Source: a virus. From it: a DNA stretch of 24,045 nucleotides. The notes under the pieces were generated by a model. That model made no database searches. It saw only the letters and a program-made list of their open reading frames with translations, and was not told the DNA's origin. Where the stretch lies: IMG/VR virus record IMGVR_UViG_3300042894_006513, positions 1-24,045 of that record. The stretch is one strand, 5' to 3'. A program made the position numbers and the translations under genes. Below, in pieces: positions 2,716-23,491 of the stretch (position 1 is its first letter; every line of letters starts with the position of its first letter).

Positions 2716-3017
2716 CTTTGTTGACAGTTTTTTGTATATTCAAGTAACCAAGCATTCATTTGTTCTTGCCAAAGCTGTTGGCTTAATATCATTAATTCCT
2801 GTTTATTAACTTTTACCGGGTTACCATAACAATCTAATAGTACTGCAGTCTGATCTGGACAAGAAAGCAGTGTTAACTGTAATTCGGGCCCGGCTTGCCA
2901 CATGCCGCCATTATAGGCAAAAAACATTTTAGATTGATATTTTTCTGCTATCAGTTTTTTAGCAGCATGGTGGTCAAATCTTGCTCGAGCCTGTTCAACA
3001 AGAGAATCAGTATTCAT
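2712..3017 (-). CDS. Conserved hypothetical phage protein (101 aa)
   Basis: This is a small soluble protein. It has an N-terminal helix rich in Arg, His and Lys (VEQARARFDHHAAKKLIAEKY, split here as VEQARARFDHH then AAKKLIAEKY), then FFAYNGGMWQAGPEL (32-46), VLLDCYGNPVKVNKQEL (59-75) and a C-terminal helix with QEQMNAWLLEY. I recall this pattern as a conserved small protein beside tail-fibre genes in T4-like cyanophages, with no known function. Its ATG at 3017 lies on a perfect 9-bp inverted repeat (3009-3029), and I see no good Shine-Dalgarno before it, so expression may be controlled at this point. Its stop overlaps the next ATG as ATGA. The position between fibre-type genes and glycosyltransferases would suit an accessory or chaperone-like role, which is only inference. 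Confidence 0.75.
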   Translation of the reverse strand: MNTDSLVEQARARFDHHAAKKLIAEKYQSKMFFAYNGGMWQAGPELQLTLLSCPDQTAVLLDCYGNPVKVNKQELMILSQQLWQEQMNAWLLEYTKNCQQR

Positions 3018-3029
3018 AGTATGAATACT
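3009..3029. repeat. Perfect 9-bp inverted repeat over a start codon
   Basis: The arms AGTATTCAT and ATGAATACT are separated by three bases. In the minus-strand transcript the start codon of the 101-aa gene opens the 3' arm of this possible hairpin. The octamer TATAAGTA (3026-3033), one base from the T4 late-promoter consensus TATAAATA, overlaps the other arm. It could be a translational lock, a protein-binding dyad or chance. No U-tract follows, so it does not look like an intrinsic terminator. Confidence 0.5.
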
Positions 3030-3056
3030 TATAAAACTGTCGATCTTCTAGTAAAT

Positions 3057-4037
3057 TTAAGCTACAGTAGCAGCAACAGTAGGAGTCCCCCAACTGTTAC
3101 TTAAATATGAAATACTAGGAGGAAAATAGGTAACCACAGTTGCAGGAGCAGTACCAAATGTAATACCCGAAGTAGCAGTACCTCCGCTGATAACATCGCT
3201 ACTACCAAATGCACTGCCGCCCGGGTCGACCCAATAAGTAGTAAGTATTAATTGTGTTCCTGCCCCGGCTGTTCGTGCCAAAAGTTGAATATATTGTCCC
3301 GTATAAGGTGCCGTATCTGCATATTGAAGATAAAGTTCTTGATCCGAGGTAGTTAAATTAAACCACCCTCTCGTAGTGAACAATGATGTCGGGGTTCCGG
3401 TTCCGCCGCTTTTAGTCACACCGGTATATGATGTTCCTGCTATGGTTTGCGTTAGCGCACCACCAGTGATAAAGATATCTCCTACTAGAGTGTTTGCTAA
3501 ATCATTCCACTCTGCATCAGCCAATTGCCCGGTGGAGGTCTTGCTCGTTTCCCACTTTATTCTACCGCCGGCATTGAAAAAATATCTAGCAGCGGCGGCA
3601 CTGGCCCAAGTAATTGTATGAGTAAAGGTTATTGTCCAAGGGTTACTACCGCTGCCAGTACTAGAAGTTTTGCTACTAGTACCGGTCCAGGCTGTATATT
3701 GACTACCCGAAGCTACAGCATTGCCTCTATTATTTGTTAAATTTGTAATATCAGTAGCGACATTCGATAATATCGTAATTAAATCTCCAGTTACTGGGGC
3801 GATTCTTGAAGTAATAGATGTTCCTTGATGGCTTGCTGTAGTAGCAAGTGTATTGACCAGACTTGCCCAATTTGTAGCAGATATTAGATCTCCTACTGCG
3901 ACCTGTGATAAAGCAGTTTGTCCATACCCAAAGCTGGTAGAACCGGTGGCCCATACACGGTTGAGGCCCGATGAACTGTCGCCTACAAATCCATTGTAGT
4001 CGCTTGCTTCTATTAAACCACCAACTGTGTAAGTCAT
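3057..4037 (-). CDS. Putative tail fibre / virion structural protein, Ser/Thr/Gly-rich (326 aa)
   Basis: The N-terminus MTYTVGGLIEASDYN (1-15), followed by FGYGQTALSQVAVGDLI (36-52), NWASLVNTL (56-64) and HQG (70-72), resembles a family of phage virion proteins I recall from T4-like and large marine phages. Further marks are RYFFNAGGRIKWE (151-163), EWNDL (176-180) and a C-terminal half of short beta strands rich in Ser, Thr and Gly, ending in a Pro/Tyr-containing segment. It has almost no Cys and no signal peptide or membrane helix. This is typical of a trimeric, beta-rich fibre or tail-tip decoration protein. It sits 10 bases after the fibre gene, with AAGG before the ATG at 4037 as a plausible ribosome site. 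The exact place in the virion cannot be read from sequence. Receptor binding is possible but unproven. Confidence 0.65.
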   Translation of the reverse strand: MTYTVGGLIEASDYNGFVGDSSSGLNRVWATGSTSFGYGQTALSQVAVGDLISATNWASLVNTLATTASHQGTSITSRIAPVTGDLITILSNVATDITNLTNNRGNAVASGSQYTAWTGTSSKTSSTGSGSNPWTITFTHTITWASAAAARYFFNAGGRIKWETSKTSTGQLADAEWNDLANTLVGDIFITGGALTQTIAGTSYTGVTKSGGTGTPTSLFTTRGWFNLTTSDQELYLQYADTAPYTGQYIQLLARTAGAGTQLILTTYWVDPGGSAFGSSDVISGGTATSGITFGTAPATVVTYFPPSISYLSNSWGTPTVAATVA

Positions 4038-4047
4038 GGAAATACCT

Positions 4048-5436
4048 TTACTTTATTGTTACAATAGCTTCGATTAAGCCAATATCAAGAGAATCTTTAG
4101 ATTCTAAGGCTCTACCTATACTATTGTACGCAGTTAAATCGCTGAAACTAGCGGCTTTAGCCAACCCATTACCTGCTGATACCAGTCTGTCGCCTTTTTT
4201 TACTGCTCCTATTACTCGTACAGGAACTCTTCCGGTCATTGCCACCGGCGGATGTGTTTCGTTATTCCCTGCGCCGCCGTTCATTAAGAACGCAGCTCTT
4301 GTACTAATCACACCAAAAACATTGTTGCTGAGCGGATCTTTTACTTCTGTAATTTCTGCTGTACCGCCCAATTCAACCACTGTTCCGGGTTCATAAAATC
4401 TATCTGCTGCAAATCGTTCAGCAACGTCAGCGTATAGAGCTTCTGTAGCAGTAGCATAAACTGTGTCAAACCAATTACTTGAACTACCGATATTGCCCAC
4501 AGTGTTACTTCCTGATTTGGCAATACTGCTGACTTCAAGTGCGTTGCCAAACCCAGCCACCGCATTGGCACCATATAAGGTAAACACAGTAGTGTCTACA
4601 CCGCCATCGTTGACATTAAATGCAATATTTCCATTATTTGTCTTATTAGCAATAGTAATTGTAGATCCCGATACTGTCATTGAAAGATCGCCATCAACAC
4701 CAATTTCCAAGCCATTATCGTTGTCTATAGTAACTGCATTAACGGTCGAAGTTACATTACCCGAAACTGCAGTAGCACGCATAAATGCATTGGCATTTAG
4801 ATTTTCCAATAATTGACTATTCGTTGCTGTTCCCTGAAAAAATTGGTTAACGCCACTGACACTGGTTGCTAGAGTAATACCTGGATTGACATTACTGAAA
4901 CCCGATATACCCACTTGTGGAGTAAATGATGCATCTTTACTGACTATGCCAACTACTTGATTAGCAACAAATAATTTTATAACTACATGGTCAACTAAAC
5001 TAGTATCTTGAATAGTGTCGACAATAGCACCGGTAGTTCCTGTGCCTGCTGTAAATGCTGGTCCTACCAGAATCCAAGTTGATCCAGTATAGACATATAA
5101 CTGTTCATTTATACTATTATACCATAGATCGCCAGCAATACTATTAGATGGAGCACTAGTTGCTGCTTGAGCACCGTTAAGCCGTTTGAAGCTAGTACCA
5201 TTATAGACTTTAAGTGTGTTGGAACTTTTATCAAACCATAACTGTCCTATTAAAGGTGCACCCGGCGATGTGCTATTTGCACTGTTTTCTAAAAGATGAA
5301 TAAAGTTTTCATCTAGAAATTCACCATAACCGGCATAATTTTTACCTACTAATGTCATACTACTAGCGGTATTAATTGTGCCGTCGGCTACTACTGCAAA
5401 TACTGATCCATCAGTTAAATTAATTGTATAGGCCAT
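4048..5436 (-). CDS. Tail fibre protein with C-terminal IMC/G2-like module (462 aa)
   Basis: The N-terminus has a conserved-looking attachment region (VADGTINTASSMTLVGKNYA, 16-35, then ENFIHLLEN, 43-51). Two copies of a short bead repeat follow: GQLWFDKSSNTLKVYNGTSF (64-83) and GDLWYNSINEQLYVYTGSTW (102-121). A beta-rich Asn/Thr/Gly shaft runs to about 300. The element SNWFDTVYATATEALYADVA (320-339) then leads into a terminal module. It contains EPGTVVELGG (349-358), NVFGVIS (372-378), GRVPVRVIGAVKKGDRLVS (402-420) and IGRALESKD (440-448). That module resembles the intramolecular-chaperone or peptidase-G2-like ends of phage fibres, which help trimers fold and may be cleaved off. I do not identify the cleavage residue. 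The ATG at 5436 has GGAG six bases upstream, and a CATAAATA octamer precedes it, so it may have its own late promoter. It is probably host-contacting; the receptor is unknown. Confidence 0.8.
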   Translation of the reverse strand: MAYTINLTDGSVFAVVADGTINTASSMTLVGKNYAGYGEFLDENFIHLLENSANSTSPGAPLIGQLWFDKSSNTLKVYNGTSFKRLNGAQAATSAPSNSIAGDLWYNSINEQLYVYTGSTWILVGPAFTAGTGTTGAIVDTIQDTSLVDHVVIKLFVANQVVGIVSKDASFTPQVGISGFSNVNPGITLATSVSGVNQFFQGTATNSQLLENLNANAFMRATAVSGNVTSTVNAVTIDNDNGLEIGVDGDLSMTVSGSTITIANKTNNGNIAFNVNDGGVDTTVFTLYGANAVAGFGNALEVSSIAKSGSNTVGNIGSSSNWFDTVYATATEALYADVAERFAADRFYEPGTVVELGGTAEITEVKDPLSNNVFGVISTRAAFLMNGGAGNNETHPPVAMTGRVPVRVIGAVKKGDRLVSAGNGLAKAASFSDLTAYNSIGRALESKDSLDIGLIEAIVTIK

Positions 5437-6241: not shown

Positions 6242-9200
6242 TCAGAATCCTCTGAAAAACCTTGCCGCTGTAGTATCTGTTTCTTGCAATGCAAGTCCAT
6301 TACTGGCGGTATTAACACCGGGTTCATACCAGCTTAATCCTTGTAAAATTTCAATTACAACTTCAAGTCCATCCGCAGGTGCAGTATCGAATTCTACGCT
6401 AATAGGATTGTAATTGCTTATAAAATAATTTCCGGACTGTAGAATTCCGCCCACGTATACACGGACTGCTAGTTCAATAAAGCCCGAACTGTCTGCATAG
6501 TAATTTAAATCTATATCATCCGCCGTAAATTTAATAGTAGATCCGTCGCCGATACTAGTGCTTTGGACCAGTCTATTTTGATATTGTGCTTCTAATAAAT
6601 TACCAATACCCATATCATACACTATCGAATCTGCTGCATGGGCTGCTACAGCAGTTCCGGCAGTACCCCTTCTTAATCCACTGATTGTATTTGAGTTGAA
6701 ATCAATCTCTCTGTAGGTAATTCTTTCGCCATTGATGGTTACTACACCTAAGAGATTTTGTGTTGGGCTAGGTATTTCTAATCTGCTGGCATCTTTAACT
6801 GTAATTTCGTCATCGTCTACTAGGACCGCAGAGGCCAATTCAGTAGTTGAATTTTCTGTAATTCTGTATGTTAATTGTAATCCGCGCATATCTTGAAAAA
6901 TTCTAAATGCCATGTGATCCGGAGTTACAGAGTCGGTGACTTCGGTAATGACTACTACATCAGTTACACTAATTACACCCGAGGTTAGAATTAATTCTTG
7001 ACCGTTGACAGTAAATCCTGCACCGTAAAAAAGTCTATCGCCATTTAAAGTTACCCATAATCTTTCAGGTTTAGTATAGACTTTATCTAAAAATAAATCA
7101 TTAACCACAAGTGTAATGCCTTCGGTATAATCGTAACTGCCTGGATCACCCGATATTGTGGCATAACTGAATGGAGTACTATCATAGGGTTGATTTACTG
7201 TTATACCTGTAGTAACTGGTCCAACATAGACCTTGGTTGAAAGATTCTGTTGTTGTGTGTCGTTCCAGGATATCACTGATATGATATCACCTGTTAAAGG
7301 TAAGAAACTACTACTAGGATTCCAATCTAAAGTAACTGTACTGGTACCCAATCCAGAAAATGTATAATCAGCATCAGTAAATACTGCAATATAAATACTA
7401 TCTCCGTCGTTGGGTTCGACTGCAAAAATAACCTCTCTAAGATCTTCGTCAGATACATAAGGTTCTACAATATAATCAACCCCTTGTACTTGTAATTCAT
7501 TGTTTAGCCAAACCACTACATCACTGTCGGAAATGGTGCTCTGATTAAATCCTAATCTAGTAGGCAATGCAAAAGCACTAGATCCGTCGGCAATATAACT
7601 TGCTCCGGCCGGAGGCCTGGCCCTGATACCATTGCGTTCAACAACGGCAACACCGGCATTTATGCCACCCATGTCAGCTGATAATATAAAACTTAAAGTT
7701 GAGCCATCTGCAGTAAAGTATTCAGTAATCGGTGTCGACCAACTTATACCTTCGGCAAAATAGCTTTCACTAAGTGCGGTAATACTAATGTAATCAACTG
7801 CAGTATAGGTTGTTGCAAAATTAATCACAGTGAATCCCACCACATCTGCAGAATAAGTAAAATCGGTTGTTAATTCGCCATTGACAAAAATTACTAAATC
7901 ATCAATTTCGTCGTAAAGTACAGGAATAGTTAGTTGATTGCCTACTTGCTGACCGTTGTAACTCTGTCTAAAGATCTGATTACCACCACCTATACCATAA
8001 ACGGAGACTGTAATTATATCACCGTTACTGGCAGCAGGAAAACTAACATTATTCACAATCGAAACTGTTTGAGTTACCCAATCTATAGTGTAATGAACTC
8101 CTAATATAAGGTCTCTTTGCTGTGTTTGATTAGATACAATTATTCCTATAGGGTCATTGATTAGATTAGCAAAACTTACTTCAGTTGATGTTGCTGAATT
8201 ATAAGTGAATCTTATATAATTCAAAGGAAAACCGTGACCATCGCCTTGCCAATCTGCTCCTGGTCTTGTAAAGACTCTAAAATCCAAAGTATCAAATATA
8301 CTGCCAGGAACTAGCTCTTCGGGTGCATGACTACTATAAGTGTCTACAAATGTTCCACCTACCACATTGATATCACTGAGTCTTGTTCCTAGATAACTGT
8401 CTAGGAAACTGCTTTCATACACAGTGTCTAACTCTGTGATATTATCGTTAAACAATAAACCGTAGACTTGTACGCCAGGATAACTTATTCCAGACATTAA
8501 TAAATTCAAATCAACACCAAACTGTTCAGCAGTGGGCGCATAGTACCCACGAGTTCTATCTACCCCACTTAAAACATTAGCAGAAACACTGGTCCATTGA
8601 GCTAAATTAAATGTCATAGAACTATTGTTTTCTGTAGCTTGCCAAACCCTGTTGGCATATCTTACTCTTTGTCCAGTAATATAAGTAATACCGGCCTGCC
8701 AATCAGTTATATTGCTTTGATGCTGATATCTGTCAAATTTTATAGTAGTTTTGATTTGTCTTATCAACTGATTGCCCATGTTAGCAGTTAACATTGCACC
8801 TGTACCAACACCGGTTACTACAATGGTTGGGGTGCTGGTATAACCGCTGCCGGGGTCTAGTATTTCAATTTCGCTGACTTGCCCTAAGATATTAATATTG
8901 GCTGTAATCACAGCAGGAGTTATGCAATCCCCTACTACAGACACTTCAGGTGGGATTAAATACCCTGTGCCACCATTGACAATATTCACAGATTCTAAAC
9001 TGAGTTTATAGTTATCAAACCAATAGACATAGGGCAATGTAGTCCACAACTGCGAATCTGGGGGCGTATCACTGTCTAGATTAGCTAATCCAGTTCCTAT
9101 TGCTGAACTTAATGTATAGGGGGTAAGTATCGGGCTGACGAATTTTGGTGTTACTAAACTGGTCTTAAAGTAAGCAGGTAAATCAAAATCGTTAACTGCC

Positions 9201-12200
9201 AACCCAGCTTGATCAAAGCCATTATATAGCAAATTCAATTCTCTAACTTGCACATGATAAGGTTTAACTTCTTGAATATAATCAATGACAAATTCTTGAT
9301 TATCTCTGTTATAGATTTGAAACGGTAATAGTTCCCGAATTCTATGATCAACATCAATTAAACTGGTTTTGAAAAGCCACTGAGGAGCCAACGACTCTGA
9401 CAAGATAAAGTTAAACATTAATACCAAACAGCGATTTCTTTCAATCAATAAATCATCGATTAATAATTCTTCGTTTATGGCCTGTATGATTTTTCTAGTT
9501 TCAGTTACCGGTTCTTGATCAAAATATTGGCTATCGTAGACTTCAACATCAAAACCAAATTTACCGAATGCATAGTCCCAAATTGCACGGCTAATTTCAA
9601 TTGTGCCATCTTGTAATCCAACCCTAACCCAACCTGTTTCTGTTCTCAGATATATTTCAAATTTATTGTTAGCATTGAATCTGACTTTGACACTGCTACC
9701 AACTGGTACGGTCAATGAATCTAGCTCGCTGGCATAATTAATCACCGCAACTGGTGTTATCGAACTATTGTAACCGGGCTGATACCAATTGATGTAACTC
9801 CAATATCTCGGTGTGTCATAACTCTGCACTCTTACCAACTGTAAAGTTTCTAGTGTTTTTGCTGCAGTTACTTGATTTATTGTCCAAAAACCAAATTGTT
9901 CGCTGTTACTTTCGACTAGGTATTTGTAGCCCACAGGTACTGCTGATAAATTTTGAAAACTAAGTTCTTCTAGATCAGCAACGCGATCGTCCCATGCCCC
10001 GGAATTACTTGATGGTATAGGTTCACTGCTATTTAACAAACTGAAATTACGATTTTCACTAATTGGATATCGGGCTAAAATTTCATTGACCCGTGTTAAG
10101 TAGTTTTGCAATGCTGCAAAGCGATTGATAAACATACTTTGTCTGGGGCGGAAATTTACTCCATATCTGTTAGCTGGTCTTAATAAAGGATCAGGTACTA
10201 TGTTGCCTTGAGTATCGGCCCCACAAAAACTGTCTTGAAGTTTTCTATATAAATTTGTACTCAAGAAACCATCTGCACGATCTTGCGGTATAAGCTCGTA
10301 TTCAACATGTACGGCATTGTCATTGAGTTCCTTGTCATATTCAATTGACAGAATAGTATCTTGAGCATTGACAATCCCAAATTTGTTGTAAATCGCTGTG
10401 GCACTACTGCTTAAAAATGCCACAAACGGTATACCGGAACTCTTGGGATCTTCTATATACCTTTCTATAGAAGTAGTGCTGAGTGTTTTTCCTAAATTAT
10501 AATTGATAAACTCATTACCGCGAACCCAAAAGAAATAATTGGTTCTTAATACTCCTGTGGAATCTACTGCGGTTACTACAGTATATGATGCCAATGATTT
10601 AACTACGCCCGGACCGGTATACTGTGCAGGTGGAACAGGACTTACCGTCCATTGATAGACTTCAACAGTGCTGCCAGGAAATAATTGACTCCATCTGGCT
10701 GCTGCATATTCAATATTATTTTGATTGGGATTAACAAATCTAGTATTAGCAGTATCCCACCAAATTTTGCCAACTTGAGCAGCACCCCACCTTCTTCCAT
10801 AATTATTAATCGATCCAACATTATAACTAGCAGGATCTATTGCACCTATGTAATCTATATTTTGCCTGGCCACACCTAGTATTTTGTTTTGTAATGGGTC
10901 AATAAAATCAAAGTATTCAGCCTCGGCGCTTTGCAATATATCATAAGCAAATACACTGTTAATTAATCTTATGTCTACTACTGGTGTTTCTCTTCTAATT
11001 ACAACCCAAGCGGCACTACTATTTTCATTTAGGAATGTAATGAATTTACCATAGTTCAATTCACTTAGAACGCTGTCCCCTAAATCACTGCCTGGACTTG
11101 TTATTAATAATGTGTTATTAACATAATTTACTACTTTGCCGTATTGATCAAGACTTTCCAAGACATTTGGTACAATTATCTGCCCAAAGACAAACAGGTT
11201 AGGATTAGTTACACTAGGCGATTGTGTATCCAATAAATCAAAACTGTATACTGCACCACTTTCGGTGGGTTGACTGTAAAATGTGGTTTTTTTACTGTCA
11301 AAATAAGTCAACCCGTTGTCATAGATATTAACAATATAGGCACTATCTCTGGGTGCACCTACTATTAAGGTTCTGGCTGAATTACTAAGCGAAATGGACT
11401 CACCGAATCTCGCAGTGATTGAGGGCCGTGGACTGTAAATATCTTGAGTATGTACAAATATTTCTAAACCCAGTGCGTCAAATACCGACGCGGGATTGAC
11501 AAATCCCAAGCTGATATTAAGTTTATTGAGATAATTTAATGTTTCATTTATGGTATTGAAACTCAATACACCAGTTACAACTGTTATATCAGCAGTAGAT
11601 GGGGGAGGTGTTGTGAATGTCAAAGTTTTAGCTGTGAGATTCAATGTATAGTCGACATTAAGAGTTTTTAATACATTGTTGACATAGACCAAAGGTGTAT
11701 AACTTTCCACATCCTGATAGGCTGTACCAATCGAATAAGTTCTATCTAAACCACTGGGGGTAATTTGTATATTAGATGATAATACTGCAGAAACATTTGG
11801 CACAACAGCATTGACCTGATGTCGGAATGCTATAAGGTTTATAATATAACCAAAGGCAGTTGTATCTATTAATTTCCAATAATCAGAATCAGATATATCT
11901 GTACCGCCCGGTACATCTTGTTGAGCCTGATATATGCTATAAATGCCCGACGATAAAGTATATACCACAGTGCGGAATGTGTAAGGGTTGGCTCCTACCC
12001 ATAGCCCAGGTACAACAACATCAATGTTATTAATTCTTAGGCTATTACCAGATATCAGCGAAGGATTAGCTATTGTTGAAGATATTGTACCATAAGTTCT
12101 TGCTTGATTAACAGTTCTTTCTACCATACCCGACTGTGGTAATTCACTGTTATTTCCCGGTACACCAACATACACACTGCAACTATTGCTACAGATTTTT

Positions 12201-15200
12201 ACTGAATATCCATACTCGGCAAATTCCTGTGGAGTTGTCTGAGATAATTTTTGTAAGAAATTAAATGTATTGATCGAAATTTCAACAACATCACCTACAG
12301 TGAAATTATAATCAATATCTACAGTATTGGAATCTATAACAGTAAATTGACCTCCTATGTTGTCTTGAGTATTGATCAGATTTTGTCCATTTACTGAAAC
12401 AGTCAATGGTTGAACAAAATTAACAGTGGTAGAATATTCAGTTTGATCAACATCTGTAACAGTGAATCTTTCTATATTTCTTTCAAAGATATAAACAGCA
12501 CCGGCATTATTTGTAGTGGTAGCTGCTACCACATCATCATTTTTTGCACCTATTAGTATTTGAGATCCGTCTAATGTGCAATCTATACTATGACCAAATC
12601 TAGCTCCTACCACAGGTGTTGGTGGTTCTAGTTTTTCAATATATTGATAGTAACTACCGCTGCGAACTATAATTTTGTTACTAGAAGTTTTCGCAGTCGA
12701 GAAGGTAATGTTTTTGGTTGTGGTATTAAATGTATAATCAACGAATGGTCTCAGAAGAACATTATCTACCAATACACTAAATGAATAAATGTTTTGTGCA
12801 GTATAGAGATAATCACCTATATTGTATACAGAGCCACCATTGCCATCGAATTCATAGGTACTTTTTCTTGTAATCGACAACACCGAATTATCAGCCGGCG
12901 TACTATTCAGTGTAATTTCGCCGCCACTTAGAGAATAGCTTGCCGGCAATAGTAATTGATTATTTAAAATAACGACTATCTGATTAGGTTTAGTTTCATC
13001 TATAACAATACTATCACCAAAGTTATATGTATCGGTACTACCATCAGTTTTGTAACTGACAGTTTGTCTTTGTACAGGGATTTGTGCAAATGCGTAAACC
13101 GCGTTAATTCCCGGAGCACCGACATACATCCACTTTTCGTCCTGGCTGATTTTTATACTGTGACCAAATTCTGCACTGTCTCCGAGATCTTGCTCGGGTA
13201 ACAATAACTGTATAAATTCAAAAGTGCTGGACCCCGATATTTTTTCTAAGACAGCGACCAATCCCATATCTGTGATTGCGTTAATGTCACTAAGTGGTGC
13301 GCCCACTGCACTAAAAGTTGTGTTGCCAATGCTGACGCTTCTACCAAAATCCCGTGTACCAACTGCAGAGCATTCTAACACACTATTGGGTATGTAATTG
13401 CCAAAATTATTTTTCACATAGGTATAAACCGCTCCCTCAACTGAATACCCTGGGCTACCAACTAAAGTAAATAAGTTTTGCTGTGATTGATCAGCACTGA
13501 TTCCATATTGACCATCTTGTACTGGCAAATCGGGTCGAATAGTTTGATCTTCGTCAAAGACTTCTTGTTTTTCTAAGACTTCCCAGGGTGAGGTTGAATT
13601 AGACACCCAAATTTTAAATCCCAGATTCAAGTCATCGGCAAAATCTGTATTAATAATATCGCTGGGCTGTGAAACACGAACACTTTTCAAAGTAAATGCT
13701 ACGCCATTGCCAAATATAGATATTTGATTTATATTGACAAATATGTAGGCAATAACAATAGCATTAGGTGCAGGTACAGCCAGGACTCTATAGACCCCAT
13801 CAATGGAAGGATCAAAGAACTTTATAATAGCTTGTTGATTTTGTAACAAATTGTGATTTTGATCGAATATGACTTGAGCAGTACCATCTAAATTATCACG
13901 AACCTCAATGACTTTGCCCGGTACGCCATAAACTCTATAGACATCCCAGTCATAGTTATTGACCTTGGCTACCCAAATTAGTTGTCCGACTGCTAACTCG
14001 CTGAGATAGGGATTTAGTACTGTGGGATCTTCTAGACTAAACACTGTGATGTCAACATCATTGAAATTGACGAATCCCGCAGTAGGTAAACCAGCATCGG
14101 GAGGCAAGTTTGATCTTGTGGTTAATATGTCAGGGTTAGATATTAAAGTGCTAGATTTCCAAATGTCACCGACCTGCACAGACTGGTTGGCTAAAGTCTG
14201 TTGTCCAGGGAAAATAACTTGTACCGTACTGGGATTAGCATTTAGATCGGCTTCGTTAAGTTGTATTTCATAGTAATTTCTATTGGCATTGGCACCGTAA
14301 GTGGCTTTTTGTATAGCCCAATTTTCGTAAATGTCAAATTGTGCGACACCTTTGCCTAGATCAGCAAAAGTAAATATTTCTGCAGCCTGAACAGTGCCCT
14401 TGGTACCTAAAAACTGTCTATATAGATTGACCTGACTGATATCGTCTAGATTTAGTGCGGTCATATATTGTCTTGGCCTAAATCCAATTAGACCATAACT
14501 GAATAAATCTTGATCACGCTCAAGATTAGCAGTGTAGACATTATAACTATTTTCTAATTGGTTACTCTTATTCGCCAAGTTAGGCAATAAACCAGTTTGT
14601 ATTTCAGTATAGTCGCTGCGCTTCCAAAGATTGAAATTAAATGTCTCGCTGGGTTGTATAATGTCTATAGCACTATAATAGAGACTTTTATATTTGACGA
14701 TTTCGCCCTTGGCATATTTGCGTAACGGTGTCCAATCTTGTATATTGTCTTGATTAAGTATAAATCCAGGAGCATTCAGCTGTCCATTCCAATTGACACT
14801 AGTTACTGCAGATATCTTGATTCGGTCCTGTCTTGCGCCAGTTGCTGGATCGTAAATTAAGTCAGCAAATATACTGCGATTGTCGAGAACCATAATGTTC
14901 TCGTAACTGACAAGATTTACGCTGATATAATTTATAGTCTGATTGTTTGTAGGTACTAAACTAAAACGATTATTTTCTCTGTCAACAACAAGATTTTTTG
15001 TTGTCAATGGAGACTTCTCTTGATCCAATACAAGATTTTCTTGTGTTTGAACACTGATGTCATCAACGATAGCCAATGGTGTTTCTAATACTAACTTATT
15101 GGCCAATGGGTTGAGATTGATAATGCTGTTTACACCCCAACCTTGTGCGTCCCAATAGAGAAACTCTTTGACCATTTGTTGCCAATTTAGAATATAGCCA

Positions 15201-18200
15201 TTTTCATAATCGTCGAAGATAAATCCCAATTGCTGCAGTCTAACACCATAACTTATAAGAAAGTCAGCAACACCACTGGTTGTGGTATATTCAAATCCAT
15301 AGGGAATTTGTATGATAGTATCACTATGCGATACACTGACATTGACTGTTTTGCCACCTGCTGAGATAGCCACTGGTATTCCTACATTTTGACTAGCCAG
15401 TATTTCAAAGTAGGGTTTTAATGTACCGTAACCATAGACACTATAACCATTATTGGTTTTTTGTACTATGACACTGCTGTAAATAGCCTGATTAAATGGA
15501 ACATTTTTATATAAAAATAAATTGTAACTTTCATCGGGTAATAGTAAGCCACTATTAATGCTTTGTGGACTGCTTTTTTCTGTAAAGACCTGTAAGAGAT
15601 TTTTTGCTGTGAATGCACCAAATCTATAGCATAATCTAACATCTAAAGAAGCTAGGTCTTCAGTTAAAATATCTGTGCTGTCAAGACCGGACTGCCTATT
15701 GAAATCTACAATCCAGTCAATGTAACTGGCTTTACTAATACCATTACCGTAGACTTGCACCCCATTGGCATCTAAACGATATCTGTCATTTAACAGGTAT
15801 TGATCAAAAGTATTATCGAAGCGATACAGATCTCTGTCGGCAAATAAGGTAAAAAATTCAGCTGGTCTAGTTAAGGCCAATAACCGCATTATACTAAATG
15901 GATAGCTACTGCTAGTTCTCCAGGCATTTTCTACTGGACCGTCGTCACCAAACTTCCAGTTTAACCGAAATGAATTTTGACTGTAACTTCCAACAACACT
16001 GTCAAACGGACTTGCTAGCTGCCCTTCTGTTCCTGCTGGAATAACTTGAGTAAGTCCAGGTCTGGCATATTTTTCAATGATATATTCGCCGTTAGGATCT
16101 CGAACCAACCCAGCTTCTAAATCGTCCCACAGAACTAAGTTACCACTGGTATAAGGAGGTAGACCATATTGTGATTGCCACCAACTGGGCTCAACACTGA
16201 ATCCCAACATTTCCCATGGTCTGGTATTGGGATAGATTGTATCGTAAAAATAATTGTAAATGCCACGCCAAGCACCTATATCTAAACTGGTATTGTTTAG
16301 TTTATTGCCAGACTGACTGTAATTGTAAGTAAATTTATTAGAGCTGATATAATTTTGTGTACGGAAATCTAATTTATTCCACCCTACCCAACTGAAAAAG
16401 TCAGAAGCCAGTATTTCGTTTATTTCCTCTATACTGTAATCAGTTGATCTAAATTGTCCCGGAATAACATCTGTAGCTACTAACGGTATAGGGTTTCCGT
16501 CAACTTTCAAGGTATTGTAAATTCGCTTTTCAAATTCTAACAATAGTTCGTCACGAAAATCTTCAAATGCCACAGTGATGCTACCGTCGTGTCCTCTAAT
16601 CACCAATGTAGGTTCAATATAAGTCTCATCAATATAAATTTCAGGTTCTGTGGCAGGATAAAGACCCAGTTTGGTAGGAGTATTGGGTATAAAACTACCT
16701 GCTGTGGTTTGATATTCTCTGATAGTAATAGTATCACCTACTGCCAATGGTGCTGTTACAGTAATAGTGGGGCTGTCGATTCCCACTGTATATTGGCTAC
16801 CTCTCAGTAGTTGAACACCATTTAAGTAAACTAGTAAACCTAGGTAATTGGCCGAAGTAAAATCATAGGTCTGCGTTGTATCAAAGACATTGACACTTAC
16901 CGGTGTCCAAGTATACACAGTTTCTGTGTAGACATTACTGAATGGCAGCATGTCTGACCAATAGAATGGCTGCGAGGAAGTTTTGTCAAATCCTAATTCA
17001 GTTAAAATGTCATTGAGAATTTCTGGTATTGTAAGATTGGTGTAATCATTGGTAACTGCTAAATTTAATATCTGTGCTTTGATTTTTTCGTATTCACGAC
17101 TGTTATAGTCAAGAGCAGAAAATATGTTAAATTGCTGACTTCTTAAAAAATATCCTGCCAAAGATAATGGACTGCTTTGCTGATTTATTATTAGACCATA
17201 AGGTAAGATATTACCTAAATCTCTGGTGTTATTAGCACCATTTATACTGCCTTGAAAATCTAAGAGATTTTCGGCGATACTTTGATAATGTTGTCTAGCA
17301 GTACCTAATGTAAAAATCGACGAATTTTCATTGAATGGATTATTTTCTAAATTATTTGGTACTTCGTAAAATCCCACTTCACTGATTTGATCACTCAGAG
17401 CTTGCACTTCAATTATAGTCCCGATAGGAATACCAGTTTCGTTAAGTGTAATCGTAGTTGAATTTTCTGTTGTAGTATAACTGAAAGTACCCGGTACTTG
17501 AAAATCTTCTCCGATATAGATTTTTACAACAGGAACATCAATGATTTCTTGGTTTTTCACTGCTATATCTAACAGCAAAGTAGAGCTGCCATCATAGACA
17601 AATCTAAATTGTTGATAAACTTGCAGTCGAGTGGCTGCTGTTTGCCAACCAATTCTTGGAACAAAATCTGTACGGCTGCTGTATTCTTTTAATATACCGT
17701 TGCTGATATTCTGGGTAACACTTGATTTGTCTTTGAGATAAACAAACGACTGCGTATAAAAGTTATTGTCAAAGACAATGTCGCCCACATTGGCCAATGT
17801 TAGATAATTTAATGGAAAACCCAGCACAGGGTCTTTACTGCCTTCGCCGGGCTGGTAACTAAAAACCTTACTACCGAAAAAGTTAGAGCTGATATATAGG
17901 TCTTGATCGCTATAGCTGATACCATTTAGATCAAAAACATCAAAGAGTGGTGCCTGGTTAACTTGTGTTTTTTCCTGTGCTAATTTCCAAGTTAATCCAT
18001 TAAACCAATATGTTAGGCCCTGTTCTGTTTGTCCGTTAAGGCCTAGCACTGAATTATTAACAAGAACATTAGCATCCTCGGCTGGTGTTAATAATATAAC
18101 CTCAGAAGAACTATCGCCGGTTGGCTCAATAAAAGAAACTATATAAATTTTGTTTCTAATGTCTAACTCATTATCAATGGCAAATATTACTCTTGTTCCG

Positions 18201-20011
18201 TTGACAAATTCATATCCGTCAACTTGATAACTAGTTGCACCATTAACTTCACTGAATGCGTCAGTGGTAACAAAATCTACTATATCTACTGGTTGTTTTG
18301 CTGCGGTACCATTATTGAATAATTGTAAACCACCGCGAAATTCTAAAATTGGTCTTTTAGCTCTGAAGTTATTGTCGAATACAGCAACAGTATTATTATA
18401 TTCTGCAGTAGCGTTAATGACATCTATATGAAACCATCTATTGGTTCTCGACCACGCATTGAGGCTAGGTGAATCTAAAGACATCAATAGATAGTCAGGT
18501 ATTAACGGTTGATTGGGCTCGGTGCTGTCAATATAAGTTTCGGGTGTGATATAATCAGTAACAGGCAGCAACTTGATAGCAGTACCCACACCCGAAACAT
18601 AGTATTCATTATTTTGATAACTGTCAGGCACAACTGACCCACGAAAAACAACTTTTAAATTGTTAGTAAAGACCACACCTGTAGGACTGGTATAGTTTGG
18701 TTTGCCTAAAATATTATCTATGAAAATAGTATCATTATCAGTGGATTCTAACAGTCGTATAACACCAAAAAAGTTTGGATTGGTACTGTCTTGATAGTAA
18801 AGAGTATTAAAGATTGCCGATAGTAATGGGATCTTTTCTATAAAACCATCTGAGTTTTTGTACCATTGTGTGCTGCTCCATTGGGCGCCGAATAAAATAT
18901 CAACTTTATCAAATATTGCAATAGGGATATATGGTTCTACTGTTAGATAAATTTGATTGTCTGTGTCATAATTGTAGACAATTCTCCAGACCTTATATCT
19001 TTCTTCAAAAGGTATCTCTAATTCTTGATCATAGAGTGTAGTATCAAAACTGCCAACTTGTCCATTGAATGCTGGATCCTGTGGTAAGGGATCAAATCTA
19101 GTAGATTCAAACCAGCCCTGTTCCGTTGTAAAAATAATAGTTTTCTGATCTAAACTAGTTATTCCATCAATACCACTGGGATAAGCGGCTAAAAAATTAT
19201 CAAGATAGACATTGTTTATATCTTCATAAGTCAGTGTAGTAGTCAATAAATCAACGGAACCCAACAAAGGTAAATCATAATAAAACTGCTGAGCATCGGC
19301 TTGAGGAACATTGAATGTCACTGTGCCATTGCTTTGACCGTTGTCCTCAACACCCAAAATATCTCTGCCGGAAATGTTAGGTGTGGCACTAAGGGTACCA
19401 TTGACACCAGGCTCTAACTGTATCCAAAATTTATGAGGATCTTGATTGACATTGAATGTATAAGATCCACCTCTTAGCAGATAAATTGTAGGGCGGTTTC
19501 CTGCTATACCCGAAAATTCATAACCCCTGTTAGTTCTGGTTACATCGAAACTGTCAGTTAATGGAATAGCAGATGAACTGATATCTACGGCGTCTGGACC
19601 ATTTGGTAACCAATAGTATTGGCTGAAATTGATAAACTTGTCAAAATCAACAAAAGGATCCCAGGAATAATATTCGCTGGTCCATAACCTATCAAGTCTT
19701 GAAGTATTGGCACCTTGCAGAGCCAATGCATCTACCATACCAGGATAAGTGATTACATCTTTAATTTTGGTTCGATCTTCACGCAATGAAACTACCCCTG
19801 GTTCAAGTTGATAGTCACTGCGTATCTTATCTAATTCTATGACATATTTGTCATTGGGATTTACACCAGGGCCAATTTTACGACCTATATAGCCCTGTGT
19901 TCTTTTAAATTCAGGTTCTTGCGTAAGTTGATCTAATGTAGCAGAAAGAAACTGCCGATTTATCGGAGTTTGAAATATTTCAGGTAAAAAATCTACAGTT
20001 CTGAAGGACAT
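6242..20011 (-). CDS. Giant baseplate-associated structural protein (4589 aa)
   Basis: This is a single uninterrupted frame, roughly 500 kDa. The N-terminus (MSFRTVDFLPEIFQTPINRQ, 1-20; TQGYIGRKIGPGVNPNDKY, 38-56; YYSWDPFVDFDKFINFSQYY, about 114-133) matches the giant virion protein I recall downstream of gp6 in T4-like cyanophages. It holds the position of T4 gp7 (about 1030 aa) but is over four times longer. Visible parts, in order, are: a Tyr/Asn-rich N-terminal third; a CBM5/12-like segment near 1755-1800; a seven-motif FG-GAP-like propeller at about 2175-2980 with inserted beta modules; a second and third CBM5/12-like segment near 2668-2714 and 3767-3807; GxGY repeats near 3675-3744; and a run of beta modules at 3950-4560. 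Just before the last module is VTINGERITYREID, then SGLRRGTAGT. No catalytic motif or membrane helix is seen. The ATG overlaps the gp6 stop (TAATG), so translation is probably coupled. It likely forms the outer wedge and a surface-binding region. Whether it is cleaved after synthesis is unknown. Confidence 0.85.
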   Translation of the reverse strand: MSFRTVDFLPEIFQTPINRQFLSATLDQLTQEPEFKRTQGYIGRKIGPGVNPNDKYVIELDKIRSDYQLEPGVVSLREDRTKIKDVITYPGMVDALALQGANTSRLDRLWTSEYYSWDPFVDFDKFINFSQYYWLPNGPDAVDISSSAIPLTDSFDVTRTNRGYEFSGIAGNRPTIYLLRGGSYTFNVNQDPHKFWIQLEPGVNGTLSATPNISGRDILGVEDNGQSNGTVTFNVPQADAQQFYYDLPLLGSVDLLTTTLTYEDINNVYLDNFLAAYPSGIDGITSLDQKTIIFTTEQGWFESTRFDPLPQDPAFNGQVGSFDTTLYDQELEIPFEERYKVWRIVYNYDTDNQIYLTVEPYIPIAIFDKVDILFGAQWSSTQWYKNSDGFIEKIPLLSAIFNTLYYQDSTNPNFFGVIRLLESTDNDTIFIDNILGKPNYTSPTGVVFTNNLKVVFRGSVVPDSYQNNEYYVSGVGTAIKLLPVTDYITPETYIDSTEPNQPLIPDYLLMSLDSPSLNAWSRTNRWFHIDVINATAEYNNTVAVFDNNFRAKRPILEFRGGLQLFNNGTAAKQPVDIVDFVTTDAFSEVNGATSYQVDGYEFVNGTRVIFAIDNELDIRNKIYIVSFIEPTGDSSSEVILLTPAEDANVLVNNSVLGLNGQTEQGLTYWFNGLTWKLAQEKTQVNQAPLFDVFDLNGISYSDQDLYISSNFFGSKVFSYQPGEGSKDPVLGFPLNYLTLANVGDIVFDNNFYTQSFVYLKDKSSVTQNISNGILKEYSSRTDFVPRIGWQTAATRLQVYQQFRFVYDGSSTLLLDIAVKNQEIIDVPVVKIYIGEDFQVPGTFSYTTTENSTTITLNETGIPIGTIIEVQALSDQISEVGFYEVPNNLENNPFNENSSIFTLGTARQHYQSIAENLLDFQGSINGANNTRDLGNILPYGLIINQQSSPLSLAGYFLRSQQFNIFSALDYNSREYEKIKAQILNLAVTNDYTNLTIPEILNDILTELGFDKTSSQPFYWSDMLPFSNVYTETVYTWTPVSVNVFDTTQTYDFTSANYLGLLVYLNGVQLLRGSQYTVGIDSPTITVTAPLAVGDTITIREYQTTAGSFIPNTPTKLGLYPATEPEIYIDETYIEPTLVIRGHDGSITVAFEDFRDELLLEFEKRIYNTLKVDGNPIPLVATDVIPGQFRSTDYSIEEINEILASDFFSWVGWNKLDFRTQNYISSNKFTYNYSQSGNKLNNTSLDIGAWRGIYNYFYDTIYPNTRPWEMLGFSVEPSWWQSQYGLPPYTSGNLVLWDDLEAGLVRDPNGEYIIEKYARPGLTQVIPAGTEGQLASPFDSVVGSYSQNSFRLNWKFGDDGPVENAWRTSSSYPFSIMRLLALTRPAEFFTLFADRDLYRFDNTFDQYLLNDRYRLDANGVQVYGNGISKASYIDWIVDFNRQSGLDSTDILTEDLASLDVRLCYRFGAFTAKNLLQVFTEKSSPQSINSGLLLPDESYNLFLYKNVPFNQAIYSSVIVQKTNNGYSVYGYGTLKPYFEILASQNVGIPVAISAGGKTVNVSVSHSDTIIQIPYGFEYTTTSGVADFLISYGVRLQQLGFIFDDYENGYILNWQQMVKEFLYWDAQGWGVNSIINLNPLANKLVLETPLAIVDDISVQTQENLVLDQEKSPLTTKNLVVDRENNRFSLVPTNNQTINYISVNLVSYENIMVLDNRSIFADLIYDPATGARQDRIKISAVTSVNWNGQLNAPGFILNQDNIQDWTPLRKYAKGEIVKYKSLYYSAIDIIQPSETFNFNLWKRSDYTEIQTGLLPNLANKSNQLENSYNVYTANLERDQDLFSYGLIGFRPRQYMTALNLDDISQVNLYRQFLGTKGTVQAAEIFTFADLGKGVAQFDIYENWAIQKATYGANANRNYYEIQLNEADLNANPSTVQVIFPGQQTLANQSVQVGDIWKSSTLISNPDILTTRSNLPPDAGLPTAGFVNFNDVDITVFSLEDPTVLNPYLSELAVGQLIWVAKVNNYDWDVYRVYGVPGKVIEVRDNLDGTAQVIFDQNHNLLQNQQAIIKFFDPSIDGVYRVLAVPAPNAIVIAYIFVNINQISIFGNGVAFTLKSVRVSQPSDIINTDFADDLNLGFKIWVSNSTSPWEVLEKQEVFDEDQTIRPDLPVQDGQYGISADQSQQNLFTLVGSPGYSVEGAVYTYVKNNFGNYIPNSVLECSAVGTRDFGRSVSIGNTTFSAVGAPLSDINAITDMGLVAVLEKISGSSTFEFIQLLLPEQDLGDSAEFGHSIKISQDEKWMYVGAPGINAVYAFAQIPVQRQTVSYKTDGSTDTYNFGDSIVIDETKPNQIVVILNNQLLLPASYSLSGGEITLNSTPADNSVLSITRKSTYEFDGNGGSVYNIGDYLYTAQNIYSFSVLVDNVLLRPFVDYTFNTTTKNITFSTAKTSSNKIIVRSGSYYQYIEKLEPPTPVVGARFGHSIDCTLDGSQILIGAKNDDVVAATTTNNAGAVYIFERNIERFTVTDVDQTEYSTTVNFVQPLTVSVNGQNLINTQDNIGGQFTVIDSNTVDIDYNFTVGDVVEISINTFNFLQKLSQTTPQEFAEYGYSVKICSNSCSVYVGVPGNNSELPQSGMVERTVNQARTYGTISSTIANPSLISGNSLRINNIDVVVPGLWVGANPYTFRTVVYTLSSGIYSIYQAQQDVPGGTDISDSDYWKLIDTTAFGYIINLIAFRHQVNAVVPNVSAVLSSNIQITPSGLDRTYSIGTAYQDVESYTPLVYVNNVLKTLNVDYTLNLTAKTLTFTTPPPSTADITVVTGVLSFNTINETLNYLNKLNISLGFVNPASVFDALGLEIFVHTQDIYSPRPSITARFGESISLSNSARTLIVGAPRDSAYIVNIYDNGLTYFDSKKTTFYSQPTESGAVYSFDLLDTQSPSVTNPNLFVFGQIIVPNVLESLDQYGKVVNYVNNTLLITSPGSDLGDSVLSELNYGKFITFLNENSSAAWVVIRRETPVVDIRLINSVFAYDILQSAEAEYFDFIDPLQNKILGVARQNIDYIGAIDPASYNVGSINNYGRRWGAAQVGKIWWDTANTRFVNPNQNNIEYAAARWSQLFPGSTVEVYQWTVSPVPPAQYTGPGVVKSLASYTVVTAVDSTGVLRTNYFFWVRGNEFINYNLGKTLSTTSIERYIEDPKSSGIPFVAFLSSSATAIYNKFGIVNAQDTILSIEYDKELNDNAVHVEYELIPQDRADGFLSTNLYRKLQDSFCGADTQGNIVPDPLLRPANRYGVNFRPRQSMFINRFAALQNYLTRVNEILARYPISENRNFSLLNSSEPIPSSNSGAWDDRVADLEELSFQNLSAVPVGYKYLVESNSEQFGFWTINQVTAAKTLETLQLVRVQSYDTPRYWSYINWYQPGYNSSITPVAVINYASELDSLTVPVGSSVKVRFNANNKFEIYLRTETGWVRVGLQDGTIEISRAIWDYAFGKFGFDVEVYDSQYFDQEPVTETRKIIQAINEELLIDDLLIERNRCLVLMFNFILSESLAPQWLFKTSLIDVDHRIRELLPFQIYNRDNQEFVIDYIQEVKPYHVQVRELNLLYNGFDQAGLAVNDFDLPAYFKTSLVTPKFVSPILTPYTLSSAIGTGLANLDSDTPPDSQLWTTLPYVYWFDNYKLSLESVNIVNGGTGYLIPPEVSVVGDCITPAVITANINILGQVSEIEILDPGSGYTSTPTIVVTGVGTGAMLTANMGNQLIRQIKTTIKFDRYQHQSNITDWQAGITYITGQRVRYANRVWQATENNSSMTFNLAQWTSVSANVLSGVDRTRGYYAPTAEQFGVDLNLLMSGISYPGVQVYGLLFNDNITELDTVYESSFLDSYLGTRLSDINVVGGTFVDTYSSHAPEELVPGSIFDTLDFRVFTRPGADWQGDGHGFPLNYIRFTYNSATSTEVSFANLINDPIGIIVSNQTQQRDLILGVHYTIDWVTQTVSIVNNVSFPAASNGDIITVSVYGIGGGNQIFRQSYNGQQVGNQLTIPVLYDEIDDLVIFVNGELTTDFTYSADVVGFTVINFATTYTAVDYISITALSESYFAEGISWSTPITEYFTADGSTLSFILSADMGGINAGVAVVERNGIRARPPAGASYIADGSSAFALPTRLGFNQSTISDSDVVVWLNNELQVQGVDYIVEPYVSDEDLREVIFAVEPNDGDSIYIAVFTDADYTFSGLGTSTVTLDWNPSSSFLPLTGDIISVISWNDTQQQNLSTKVYVGPVTTGITVNQPYDSTPFSYATISGDPGSYDYTEGITLVVNDLFLDKVYTKPERLWVTLNGDRLFYGAGFTVNGQELILTSGVISVTDVVVITEVTDSVTPDHMAFRIFQDMRGLQLTYRITENSTTELASAVLVDDDEITVKDASRLEIPSPTQNLLGVVTINGERITYREIDFNSNTISGLRRGTAGTAVAAHAADSIVYDMGIGNLLEAQYQNRLVQSTSIGDGSTIKFTADDIDLNYYADSSGFIELAVRVYVGGILQSGNYFISNYNPISVEFDTAPADGLEVVIEILQGLSWYEPGVNTASNGLALQETDTTAARFFRGF
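8590..8710 (-). other. CBM5/12-like segment 3 in the giant protein
   Basis: At about residues 3767-3807, TDWQAGITYITGQRVRYANR, then VWQATENNSSMTFNLAQWTS is a good fit to the W.....Y..G..V.Y....W.A.......F....W pattern of CBM5/12 modules. It directly follows the GxGY-repeat region. Confidence 0.5.
8778..8985 (-). repeat. GxGY beta-repeat pair in the giant protein
   Basis: Two related units, VNGGTGYLIPPEVSVVG and ILDPGSGYTSTPTIVVTGVG, each ending in an Ala/Thr-rich strand (ITANIN; AMLTANMG), lie at about residues 3675-3744. Such GxGYxxxPxVxxxG repeats are common in beta-rich phage fibre and tail proteins. Confidence 0.6.
11060..13490 (-). repeat. Seven FG-GAP-like motifs (possible 7-bladed beta-propeller) inside the giant protein
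   Basis: Seven segments follow the integrin/FG-GAP blade pattern (F/Y-G-x-S/V-V/I, then a strand, then V/I-G-A/S-P). By residue they are: LVGSPGYSVEGAVYTY (about 2180), FGRSVSIGNTTFSAVGAPLS (about 2220), FGHSIKISQDEKWMYVGAPG (about 2282), FGHSIDCTLDGSQILIGAKN (about 2470), YGYSVKICSNSCSVYVGVPG (about 2598), FGESISLSNSARTLIVGAPR (about 2867) and YGKVVNYVNNTLLITSPGSD (about 2954). Several are followed by a GAVY-type closing strand. Long insertions between motifs 3-4, 4-5 and 5-6 contain other modules. Seven motifs suit a closed propeller. The usual Ca2+ loop DxDxDG is not obvious in every motif. This is a pattern reading, not a modelled fold. Confidence 0.6.
11870..12010 (-). other. CBM5/12-like segment 2 in the giant protein
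   Basis: At about residues 2668-2714, WVGANPYTFRTVVYTLSSGI, then YSIYQAQQDVPGGTDISDSD and YWKL follow the same W/Y...Y....V.Y....Y.A......D..YW layout, in an insertion between propeller motifs 5 and 6. The match is looser than segment 1 because the usual Gly before the V-x-Y strand is missing. Confidence 0.4.
14610..14745 (-). other. CBM5/12-like segment 1 in the giant protein
   Basis: At about residues 1755-1800 the sequence QDWTPLRKYAKGEIVKYKSL, then YYSAIDIIQPSETFNFNLWK, fits the small chitin-binding CBM5/12 pattern. That pattern is W...Y..G..V.Y....Y.A......P......W, with the spaced aromatics that stack on sugars. In phages such modules occur on tail proteins that touch the host surface. 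Ligand and actual binding are not shown by sequence. Confidence 0.5.
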
Positions 20012-23000
20012 TAAATTACCCCACTACCAGGTGCTGTTTTTATATTTGTACTTGTCAAGGCTGAAATAACTTCGACATTATTTACTGTTGCTGCATTTAC
20101 AAAAATTTCATTGGGTGCACTTCTTATTTCGTAGAGATCACCAAAACTCTTGTTGGGATTTAATGGTACTATAACAACACTGCTTACTAAACCACCTATA
20201 TTTCTGTGAACATAAGCAGCACATTCACTGAAATAAAATGTAGCTCCAAAATCCCATTTGTCTATGGTAAAATAATTATTGAGATTTTGTACAACAAGAT
20301 TTTTGATTTCGCTGTCACTGGCCGATGTGTTGGCGGCCTTAATTACTTTAATGGTGGCCTTTAAAGCATTGGCAGCTTTTTCGCCAAATAAGGGTTTGAA
20401 AGTAACACTGTTTAATACAATGTTATCACTGATCATTTTGTAATTGTCAAGCCCTTGATATGCCAACGATAATTCATTGATTGTAGGTTGTAAAGGCTCA
20501 GGTACTGTACCAGTGGTATCTCGTATCCAGTTTTGATAGGCAATATAGTATTGTTGTGTGACTACATACAAGTCAATGATATTGCTTGTTCCTGGGTCAA
20601 TTCGGCTAGTCAATGGTGCATTGTGTCTGTATTGATAATACAGACTCTGTCTACCTGTTTTCACTATCCACGAGCTAGAAACATCAGTTATTACTCGCTG
20701 ATCATTTATGAAATCTAATCTATAAAATGCACCCACTGAACCAGATAATGTTACTTGAGCATAAGCATAAAATATTTGATCTGGGTTGAATTCAGTCTTA
20801 ACTAATTCTATGCTATCTAAAGTTGGCAGATCTCTGTAGACACGGTCAGCAGCAACTAACAGATATCTTTCGAGATTGTCAAAGTCTACTGTTTTTTCGA
20901 AGAATACAGTTTTGTTTACGGTATTATCGTCGGGGTTGACAATTTCATCAAAAAAGTCAGGATTATCTGCGATACCATCAGCATCACTATCTTCAAAACT
21001 CACTGTGACTTGAAAGTCATCAACTAAACCATCACTAAGCACTGGTTGTCCAATTATTCTCAAGGGGTAATCAGTTGTTAATGGTTGATTACTGTCAGGC
21101 TGCGAATTAGATCTTAAAACTTTGACAAAATCTTTTATGGTAGTGCCAGTTCTCGGATCGTAGATATTTTGATTGGTTTCAAAGAAAAATCTCGTTTGAA
21201 TTACACTACCAAAAGAATACACCAAAAATCTTGTTGAAACAGTATAAGTTTCGCCGTCGGTTATAAATTGTATAAGCCAACTGGCATCACTGTTGGTTCC
21301 TGCTGTACTCTGGGCATTAGCCAAACTAAATTCAGCATCAACTGCTAAATTACTGCTGGTAATTACATACCATGTACTGGTTAAGTTGTTATAACCTAGT
21401 CCAAAATTTCTGTAAAGTGTAATTTGATCTATAATTGAATTCACTACAGCCGTTGATAACGATGTCACTAAAACTGGTATAACTTCTACAGGAATCGCCG
21501 AAGTAGGAACAAAATTATTTAGAGTTATGGGACCAGTGCCGTCACTGAGATTACCCAGCCCACCATTAGTACCATTTCCTACTATGGACTGTGGGCTGGC
21601 CCATATGACTAGTTTGTCGCCTTCCTGGTTCGGCGTACCAACCTGTAATTTATTTTCACTGTCAAAGTATTGTCCATTTGGTGCTTGAAATTTAATCAAA
21701 GAACCCACAACAATATATTTGGTATTTGTGCTGCTAAAACTGCCCACTGCTACCGGAGTACCATTGCTATCTTTGAAGTATCCGGTGGTTTCGTTTAAAA
21801 GAGTAGTGCTTTGTTGCCAAGTTAAATTGAGTGCACTCAGCGACGGTCTTGAAAAATTTGCATAATAAAATTGAACAAATTCATCTTCTGCAATAGTAGG
21901 TTCGATTTGATTATTAATAACACTGGCTACATCATTGAGGTTTAACCAAGTGAAAGTAAATGTCGGTAAAGCATTATCTTCCCATAATGCACCATCACTA
22001 CCAAAACTGTTTGTGCTGGAATATTTTCCAGTATTGTCAACAAGATCTAACCAACGACTGGTGCCTATACTGGCACGATTCACTGCTTTACTTTTAATAA
22101 TGCTGTTATACAGTGTAAATGGAAAATTATTATAATCTTCGCCATTTACCATGCGATTTTGTGTGTAGTATCTAGCAGGTGCACGCTGTTTAATTTCGTC
22201 TAGCGTTTCTCTAGGTTGTGCATTGCTGACAGGTTGCGTAATACCGCAAGTAAATGTTATAGTCTCAACTTGCCCAGTTCGGCTGGTATAGGTAATAGGT
22301 ATTACCACACTTTGCATTTCTTCGGGATTAATGATATATCTTAATCCGTTACTGGCTCTGACATAACATCTAAATAGTCCCACCGGGATGGCGCTAAAAA
22401 CCCCATCACCGAAAATCAGTGTAATTTGATCATTGACTCTGCTGGCAACACTGAATAATTTTCTTTGTTCTGGATCTATCTGCTCGACTGCTCCAGCAAA
22501 GACATTGTCAACATATTGCCATTCGTCGGTGGTATTACCTACATTATCAAGTTGAAATAACCAACGGTCTTCGTTATTAACACCTTCGATATTAATTGCT
22601 ACTGTTTGATTGGAAATCTGTTCAGGCAAATTAAAATCTTGATTTGTCAATACTCCTTGTTTGAAATAAAAAAAGTATCCGGTATTGGCGCTGTCAAATC
22701 CCATTCTGTCATTGCGATAAAGAATGTTAAAAACAGAATTTATATTGGGACTAGGTTCATACACATAATCTCGACCTACGCTAGTTGCACTAACAGCTTC
22801 AAATGGCATTTGAACACCATCTATGGTGCTGTTATAACTGACAATAGGCAAAAATCCCGGCACTAAATTAATACTATATTCATCAGTGACGACATTTAAG
22901 ATAGTTTGTCTATTACCGGGTCTGCCAACTTTTTGACTGTCTATCAATGCAGCATTTATTATAGCAGTAAACTGCTCACGCCAATTGGGATTTGTGGGGT

Positions 23001-23471: not shown

Positions 23472-23491
23472 TATAAACTATGTAGTTTATA
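23472..23491. repeat. Perfect 9-bp inverted repeat at the end of gp25
   Basis: The arms TATAAACTA and TAGTTTATA are separated by two bases and overlap the gp25 stop codon (23487-23489). The loop is too short for a simple hairpin and no U-tract follows in the transcript direction, so a terminator is unlikely. It may be a protein-binding dyad next to the GATAAATA octamer, or chance in AT-rich DNA. Confidence 0.45.

Follow-up and report, generated by a model that had tools for sequence, protein, structure and literature searches.

The giant baseplate protein encoded in this viral DNA is predicted with confidence to contain, at residues 2164-3007, a seven-bladed beta-propeller of the integrin type. 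The propeller is conserved in a large environmental clade of uncultured jumbo-type phages, and a single insertion site for it in the giant is strongly predicted. The fold of the integrin head is known above all for its role in adhesion in animals. Its presence at a fixed, losable baseplate site throughout a large phage clade, together with a seven-blade ring that stays constant and hairpin modules that vary, points to a hitherto unrecognised organ of contractile tails for adhesion or docking.

Giant baseplate protein and its gene neighbourhood

The window, i.e. the whole stretch of DNA that was analysed, is a virus record of 24,045 bases in which every large gene lies on the minus strand (Table 1). 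The gene order is gp25-like, gp6-like and then the giant, and the last two genes share a one-base overlap. The same order is found in phage PA5oct, and all three of its products are detected by mass spectrometry according to its record. Both the gene order and the detected PA5oct homologue agree with the first-pass annotation, in which the giant was called a baseplate protein. A megablast search with the window and a phmmer search of the PDB with the full giant returned no match.

The giant matches phrog_10938 (virion structural protein) with E 4e-285. Homologues of 3326-4555 aa are found in seven named phages (PA5oct, RaK2, Munch, SCTP-2, Atu_ph07, Phosso and Vibrio 2.275.O), and the core blocks align in all seven. 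On sequence grounds, the giant belongs to the phrog_10938 giants, with a core homologous along much of its length. The giants of these seven phages mostly hold the same position after the gp25-like and gp6-like genes. They differ in carrying short linkers or other long inserts, without the propeller. In one subclade of the relatives (L115-L121, L077-L093) the giants are longer than 5400 aa and extend past the locus end; in the L084 record the giant lies within a 6350-aa open frame.

A comparison with T4 gp7 was also made. Like gp7, the giant directly follows a gp6-type gene and overlaps its end. However, T4 gp7 has 1032 aa, and the profile-profile comparison of the two is negative (hhalign probability 0.1%). 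With no detectable similarity to gp7, the giant is therefore not classed as gp7.

Table 1. Positions of the features in the window and of the corresponding residues of the giant protein.
Feature	Window position	Residues	Strand	Evidence
gp25-like baseplate wedge protein	23487-23861		(-)	PF04965 E 1e-8, phrog_43 E 2e-15
gp6-like baseplate wedge protein	20011-23436		(-)	phrog_10646 E 2e-280; also phrog_219, Gp6-like_1st E 0.005
Giant baseplate protein, 4589 aa, 511 kDa	6242-20011		(-)	ORF; T4 gp7 gene position
Upstream conserved core of giant	14192-16696	1106-1940	(-)	alignment with relatives
Predicted seven-bladed FG-GAP/integrin-type beta-propeller	10991-13522	2164-3007	(-)	PF14312, AlphaFold2, Foldseek
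Blade 1, four strands, no insert	13373-13522	2164-2213	(-)	DSSP of model, motif table
Blade 2, no insert	13196-13360	2218-2272	(-)	model, motif table
Blade 3, two DYT-type beta modules in strand 3-4 hairpin	12629-13183	2277-2461	(-)	model, motifs, module profile
Blade 3 insert	12656-13072	2314-2452	(-)	modules 2328-2382 (34 bits), 2395-2450 (48 bits)
Blade 4, one beta insert (2518-2574) in strand 3-4 hairpin	12245-12613	2467-2589	(-)	model, motifs
Blade 5, largest insert (2638-2849) in strand 3-4 hairpin	11438-12229	2595-2858	(-)	model, motifs
Candidate CBM5/12-like segment in blade 5 insert	11858-12004	~2670-2718	(-)	weak: hhalign E 0.0015, probability 17%
DYT-type beta module in blade 5 insert	11579-11740	2758-2811	(-)	41 bits
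Blade 6, small strand 2-3 loop insert (~2890-2916)	11174-11422	2864-2946	(-)	model, motifs
Blade 7, plain	10991-11158	2952-3007	(-)	model, motifs
Downstream conserved core of giant	10052-10990	3008-3320	(-)	abuts upstream part in propeller-less relatives

Seven FG-GAP motifs

Seven FG-GAP motifs are located by alignment at residues 2168, 2222, 2281, 2471, 2599, 2868 and 2956. This is the number given in the first-pass annotation, whose interval of 11060-13490 is right to a few dozen bases. The Pfam family FG-GAP_2 (PF14312) matches the whole giant with E 5.1e-12 and the excised region with E 5.1e-15 (score 55.8 against a cut-off of 23 bits), and three of the seven repeats pass on their own. 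The sequence profile alone reaches integrin alpha-IIb with E 9e-4. The profile search that had been suggested as a check returns an FG-GAP family and an integrin instead of no hit. A loose motif pattern finds five matches in the propeller region, compared with a mean of 0.0085 in shuffled sequences. The seven motif columns are present throughout 67 aligned close relatives, with the letters of single motifs degraded in a few diverged ones.

Scans of viral contigs and tblastn against phage records gave 161 giants with both flanking core blocks placed; this sample leans to each scan's top 80 hits, and the site is located by core profiles using best domains only. Above 7 bits, a blade profile yields 762 matches in the 137,848 residues at the propeller site of these 161 giants, 0 in 567,244 residues of these proteins outside the site and 0 in shuffles; it was built from relatives and is therefore partly circular for them, which does not hold for the other places searched. 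At least three matches are found in 128 of the 161 giants, and the counts per giant stop at seven, with a single eight. A tblastn search with the propeller against 50,697 phage records returned nothing at 1e-5.

Predicted structure of the propeller

The AlphaFold2 model of residues 2055-3015, built with 61 homologues, has a pLDDT of 91.1 and a pTM of 0.88. When its DSSP strands are compared with the motifs, seven blades of four strands each result. In a Foldseek search of the PDB, integrin alpha chains make up nearly all of the top fifty matches. In particular, isolated alpha-5 integrin propellers align with nearly the entire query over 913 columns (TM 0.60-0.61 on target length, TMt). The top match itself, 9k09_U from cyanophage A4, was discarded as not meaningful (TM 0.09, rmsd 33). 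A compact homologue with fewer inserts (L074, 28% identical) was modelled with a pLDDT of 79.7 and a pTM of 0.80, and it matches integrin alpha-5 with TMt 0.59 and CIAO1, a seven-bladed WD40 ring, with TMt 0.76. We infer closure of the ring from the whole-length Foldseek matches and the strand order.

The propeller first read from the motifs is thus borne out by the model and by its whole-length matches to integrin alpha and WD40 rings. Separate beta sandwiches lacking a circular seven-blade arrangement did not appear. That the region nevertheless consists of such sandwiches with chance FG-GAP-like motifs would agree with the four repeats that fall short in Pfam individually. But the model is confident, it matches closed seven-bladed rings over the whole length, the seven repeats are conserved and there are no chance matches, which leaves this reading barely credible. 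Some Foldseek and sequence matches are lactonase-type propellers (1ri6, 3hfq, paraoxonase), as would be expected of an enzymatic, carbohydrate-cleaving propeller with a lactonase- or glycosidase-type seven-bladed fold acting as a tail depolymerase. For the window, however, these matches are weaker than those to integrin and reflect general propeller similarity, and no enzyme family is matched in Pfam or NCBIfam. We regard such an enzyme as quite unlikely.

Inserts in the blades

According to the first-pass annotation, at least three of the gaps between the blade motifs are filled with unrelated beta modules. Filling is indeed observed, but the inserts sit inside the blades; those of blades 3, 4 and 5 occupy the strand 3-4 hairpin and that of blade 6 the strand 2-3 loop. 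Nor are the modules unrelated, as most of them, at least three, are copies of one recurring module, the DYT beta module. Its profile matches nine sites in the giant of the window, starting at residues 826, 1042, 2328, 2395, 2758, 3942, 4156, 4313 and 4515, and never matches shuffles; the inserted DYT modules are therefore related to each other. Three of the nine are within the propeller. The idea of a hub from which modules project fits this anatomy, with modules inserted in the blade hairpins of the model.

The CBM5/12-like segment, also proposed in the first reading, is weakly matched at profile level in the window copy (Table 1), for which Pfam returns nothing up to E 5-10. In one relative (L049) the equivalent insert gives E 0.0012 with Pfam CBM_5_12 and in another relative the value is 0.037, both under the cut-off. 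A CBM5/12 model made from the giant's own copies finds none inside any propeller stretch. The CBM5/12-like blade 5 insert is found in about a quarter of the relatives.

Across the 67 relatives, the motif spacing ranges over 52-519 residues between blades 3 and 4, 105-296 between blades 4 and 5 and 146-269 between blades 5 and 6. The lowest value of blades 3-4, 52 residues, is seen in L077, where the blade 3 insert is absent. The blade number is constant and the hairpin inserts are variable in length. Identity to the window has a median of 0.59 and 0.57 for the two flanking cores, 0.41 for the blades and 0.36 for the inserts (31% gaps). The propeller changes faster than the core.

Insertion site and history of the propeller

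The propeller is found between a core block ending near residue 2150 and one starting near residue 3000. In propeller-less relatives, the flanks align directly across the site. Munch, RaK2, Vibrio 2.275.O, PA5oct and an environmental clade of 11 rows around L071 have 195-310 residues between the two block profiles, compared with 1060 in the window. The FG-GAP propeller is absent at this site in the cultured relatives checked, which are the seven phages named above. SCTP-2 has 498 residues there, a different insert without FG-GAP motifs. The giants of Atu_ph07 and Phosso (L007 and L009, residues ~1660-3190) have ~1500-1520 residues at the site without FG-GAP, an unrelated or unrecognised insert. 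The site is a recurrent one, holding the propeller, a long FG-GAP-free insert or nothing, and marks where the giants diversify.

The upstream core of 161 rows was used for a FastTree phylogeny, which groups all propeller bearers apart from all cultured phages. Two to three changes explain the distribution of the propeller on this tree, compared with about 30 in shuffles. The tree is rooted at its midpoint, and the deeper state, gain or loss, depends on the root. The L071 clade is nested among the propeller bearers and has apparently lost the propeller cleanly. Many relatives share the core yet have no propeller, and clean loss can occur; the propeller is therefore not needed for baseplate assembly as such.

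Comparison with known propellers

The propeller resembles those of integrin alpha (alpha-5, alpha-V and alpha-IIb) in its seven four-stranded FG-GAP blades. Domains can be inserted in propeller loops, for example the integrin I domain. Unlike in integrin alpha, the inserts of the giant are found mainly in blades 3-5, within the strand 3-4 hairpins, the identity is ~9-12% and the propeller lies inside a viral baseplate protein. Integrin alpha has Ca2+-binding DxD/NxDG loops in its later blades and pairs with a beta subunit for ligand binding. No integrin-type Ca2+ motif (D-x-D/N-x-D-G) is present in residues 2164-3007, and because these motifs are missing the propeller is not an integrin subunit.

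Viral proteins with the FG-GAP propeller fold are known from Harvfovirus and Megaviridae, the Atu_ph07 'hemagglutinin' and Phosso (TMt up to 0.79). These are separate genes or different proteins. Since FG-GAP propellers occur in other viral proteins, what is new is therefore the place, a fixed and losable insertion in a giant baseplate protein. In the open-access literature searched, we found no description of an FG-GAP domain or propeller in a phage baseplate.

Both the profile and the fold match identify the 'hemagglutinin' of Agrobacterium phage Atu_ph07 (NC_042013, 243018-244199, L100) as an FG-GAP propeller, and it is encoded beside an annotated tail sheath gene. In Phosso, a Sinorhizobium phage, two adjacent giant hypothetical proteins of ~3160 and ~3690 aa (PV764938, 48338-68978, L101) contain FG-GAP_2 repeats, some 35 or more in number, which would suffice for several consecutive propellers. 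Two more FG-GAP proteins of ~400 aa are encoded downstream of a minor tail protein gene of the same phage (PV764938, 92124-94532).

Proposed role of the propeller

We slightly favour a proposal in which the giant is an outer wedge protein whose closed propeller holds modules for host contact or fibre docking. The giant would serve as outer wedge protein in the baseplate of a contractile tail, with the propeller standing out from the wedge as a rigid disk, exposed at the wedge rim. Assuming that the giant occurs in the wedge in the same number as gp7, there would probably be six propellers per baseplate. Each would carry small beta modules, joined in some phages by a carbohydrate-binding-like module. 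Under the integrin convention, every 3-4 hairpin of a propeller opens on a single face, and the three large inserts are accordingly expected to project together on that face. During early adsorption, the modules may make contact with the host surface or serve to dock a fibre, and the propeller probably helps the tail touch the host.

A role in host contact agrees better than a core scaffold does with the faster change, the variability of the inserts and what looks like free loss of the propeller. The fast change may also reflect relaxed constraint instead of host pressure, and since DYT modules occur elsewhere in the giant, they may be structural spacers. A structural scaffold would make the propeller a virion-internal docking platform, such as a seat for a tail fibre or a neighbouring wedge, with no direct host contact. 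In its favour, docking is a frequent function of propellers, the clade keeps the seven-blade number and many blade positions, and the recurring beta modules are spread along the entire giant. However, many relatives with the same core have no propeller, clean loss is possible and the inserts are strongly variable, so we consider the scaffold possible but less likely. As an extension of the host-contact reading, offered tentatively, six exposed propellers on each baseplate of this uncultured clade could act as exchangeable receptor-binding hubs, in which the ring is fixed and the hairpin modules are swapped to change the first contact. The propeller offers a well-defined target for cryo-EM and for assays of binding.

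Other open reading frames in the window

Two adjacent open reading frames at window positions 1131-2715 (267 and 264 aa) each weakly match phrog_1903, which suggests a tandem duplication. The open reading frame next to this pair, at 1-861, has a very weak resemblance to glycosyltransferases. A 462-aa open reading frame at 4048-5436 has partial matches to several virion protein families and, near its C-terminus, a weak match to the Peptidase_G2 autoproteolytic domain, as in tail fibres and spikes.
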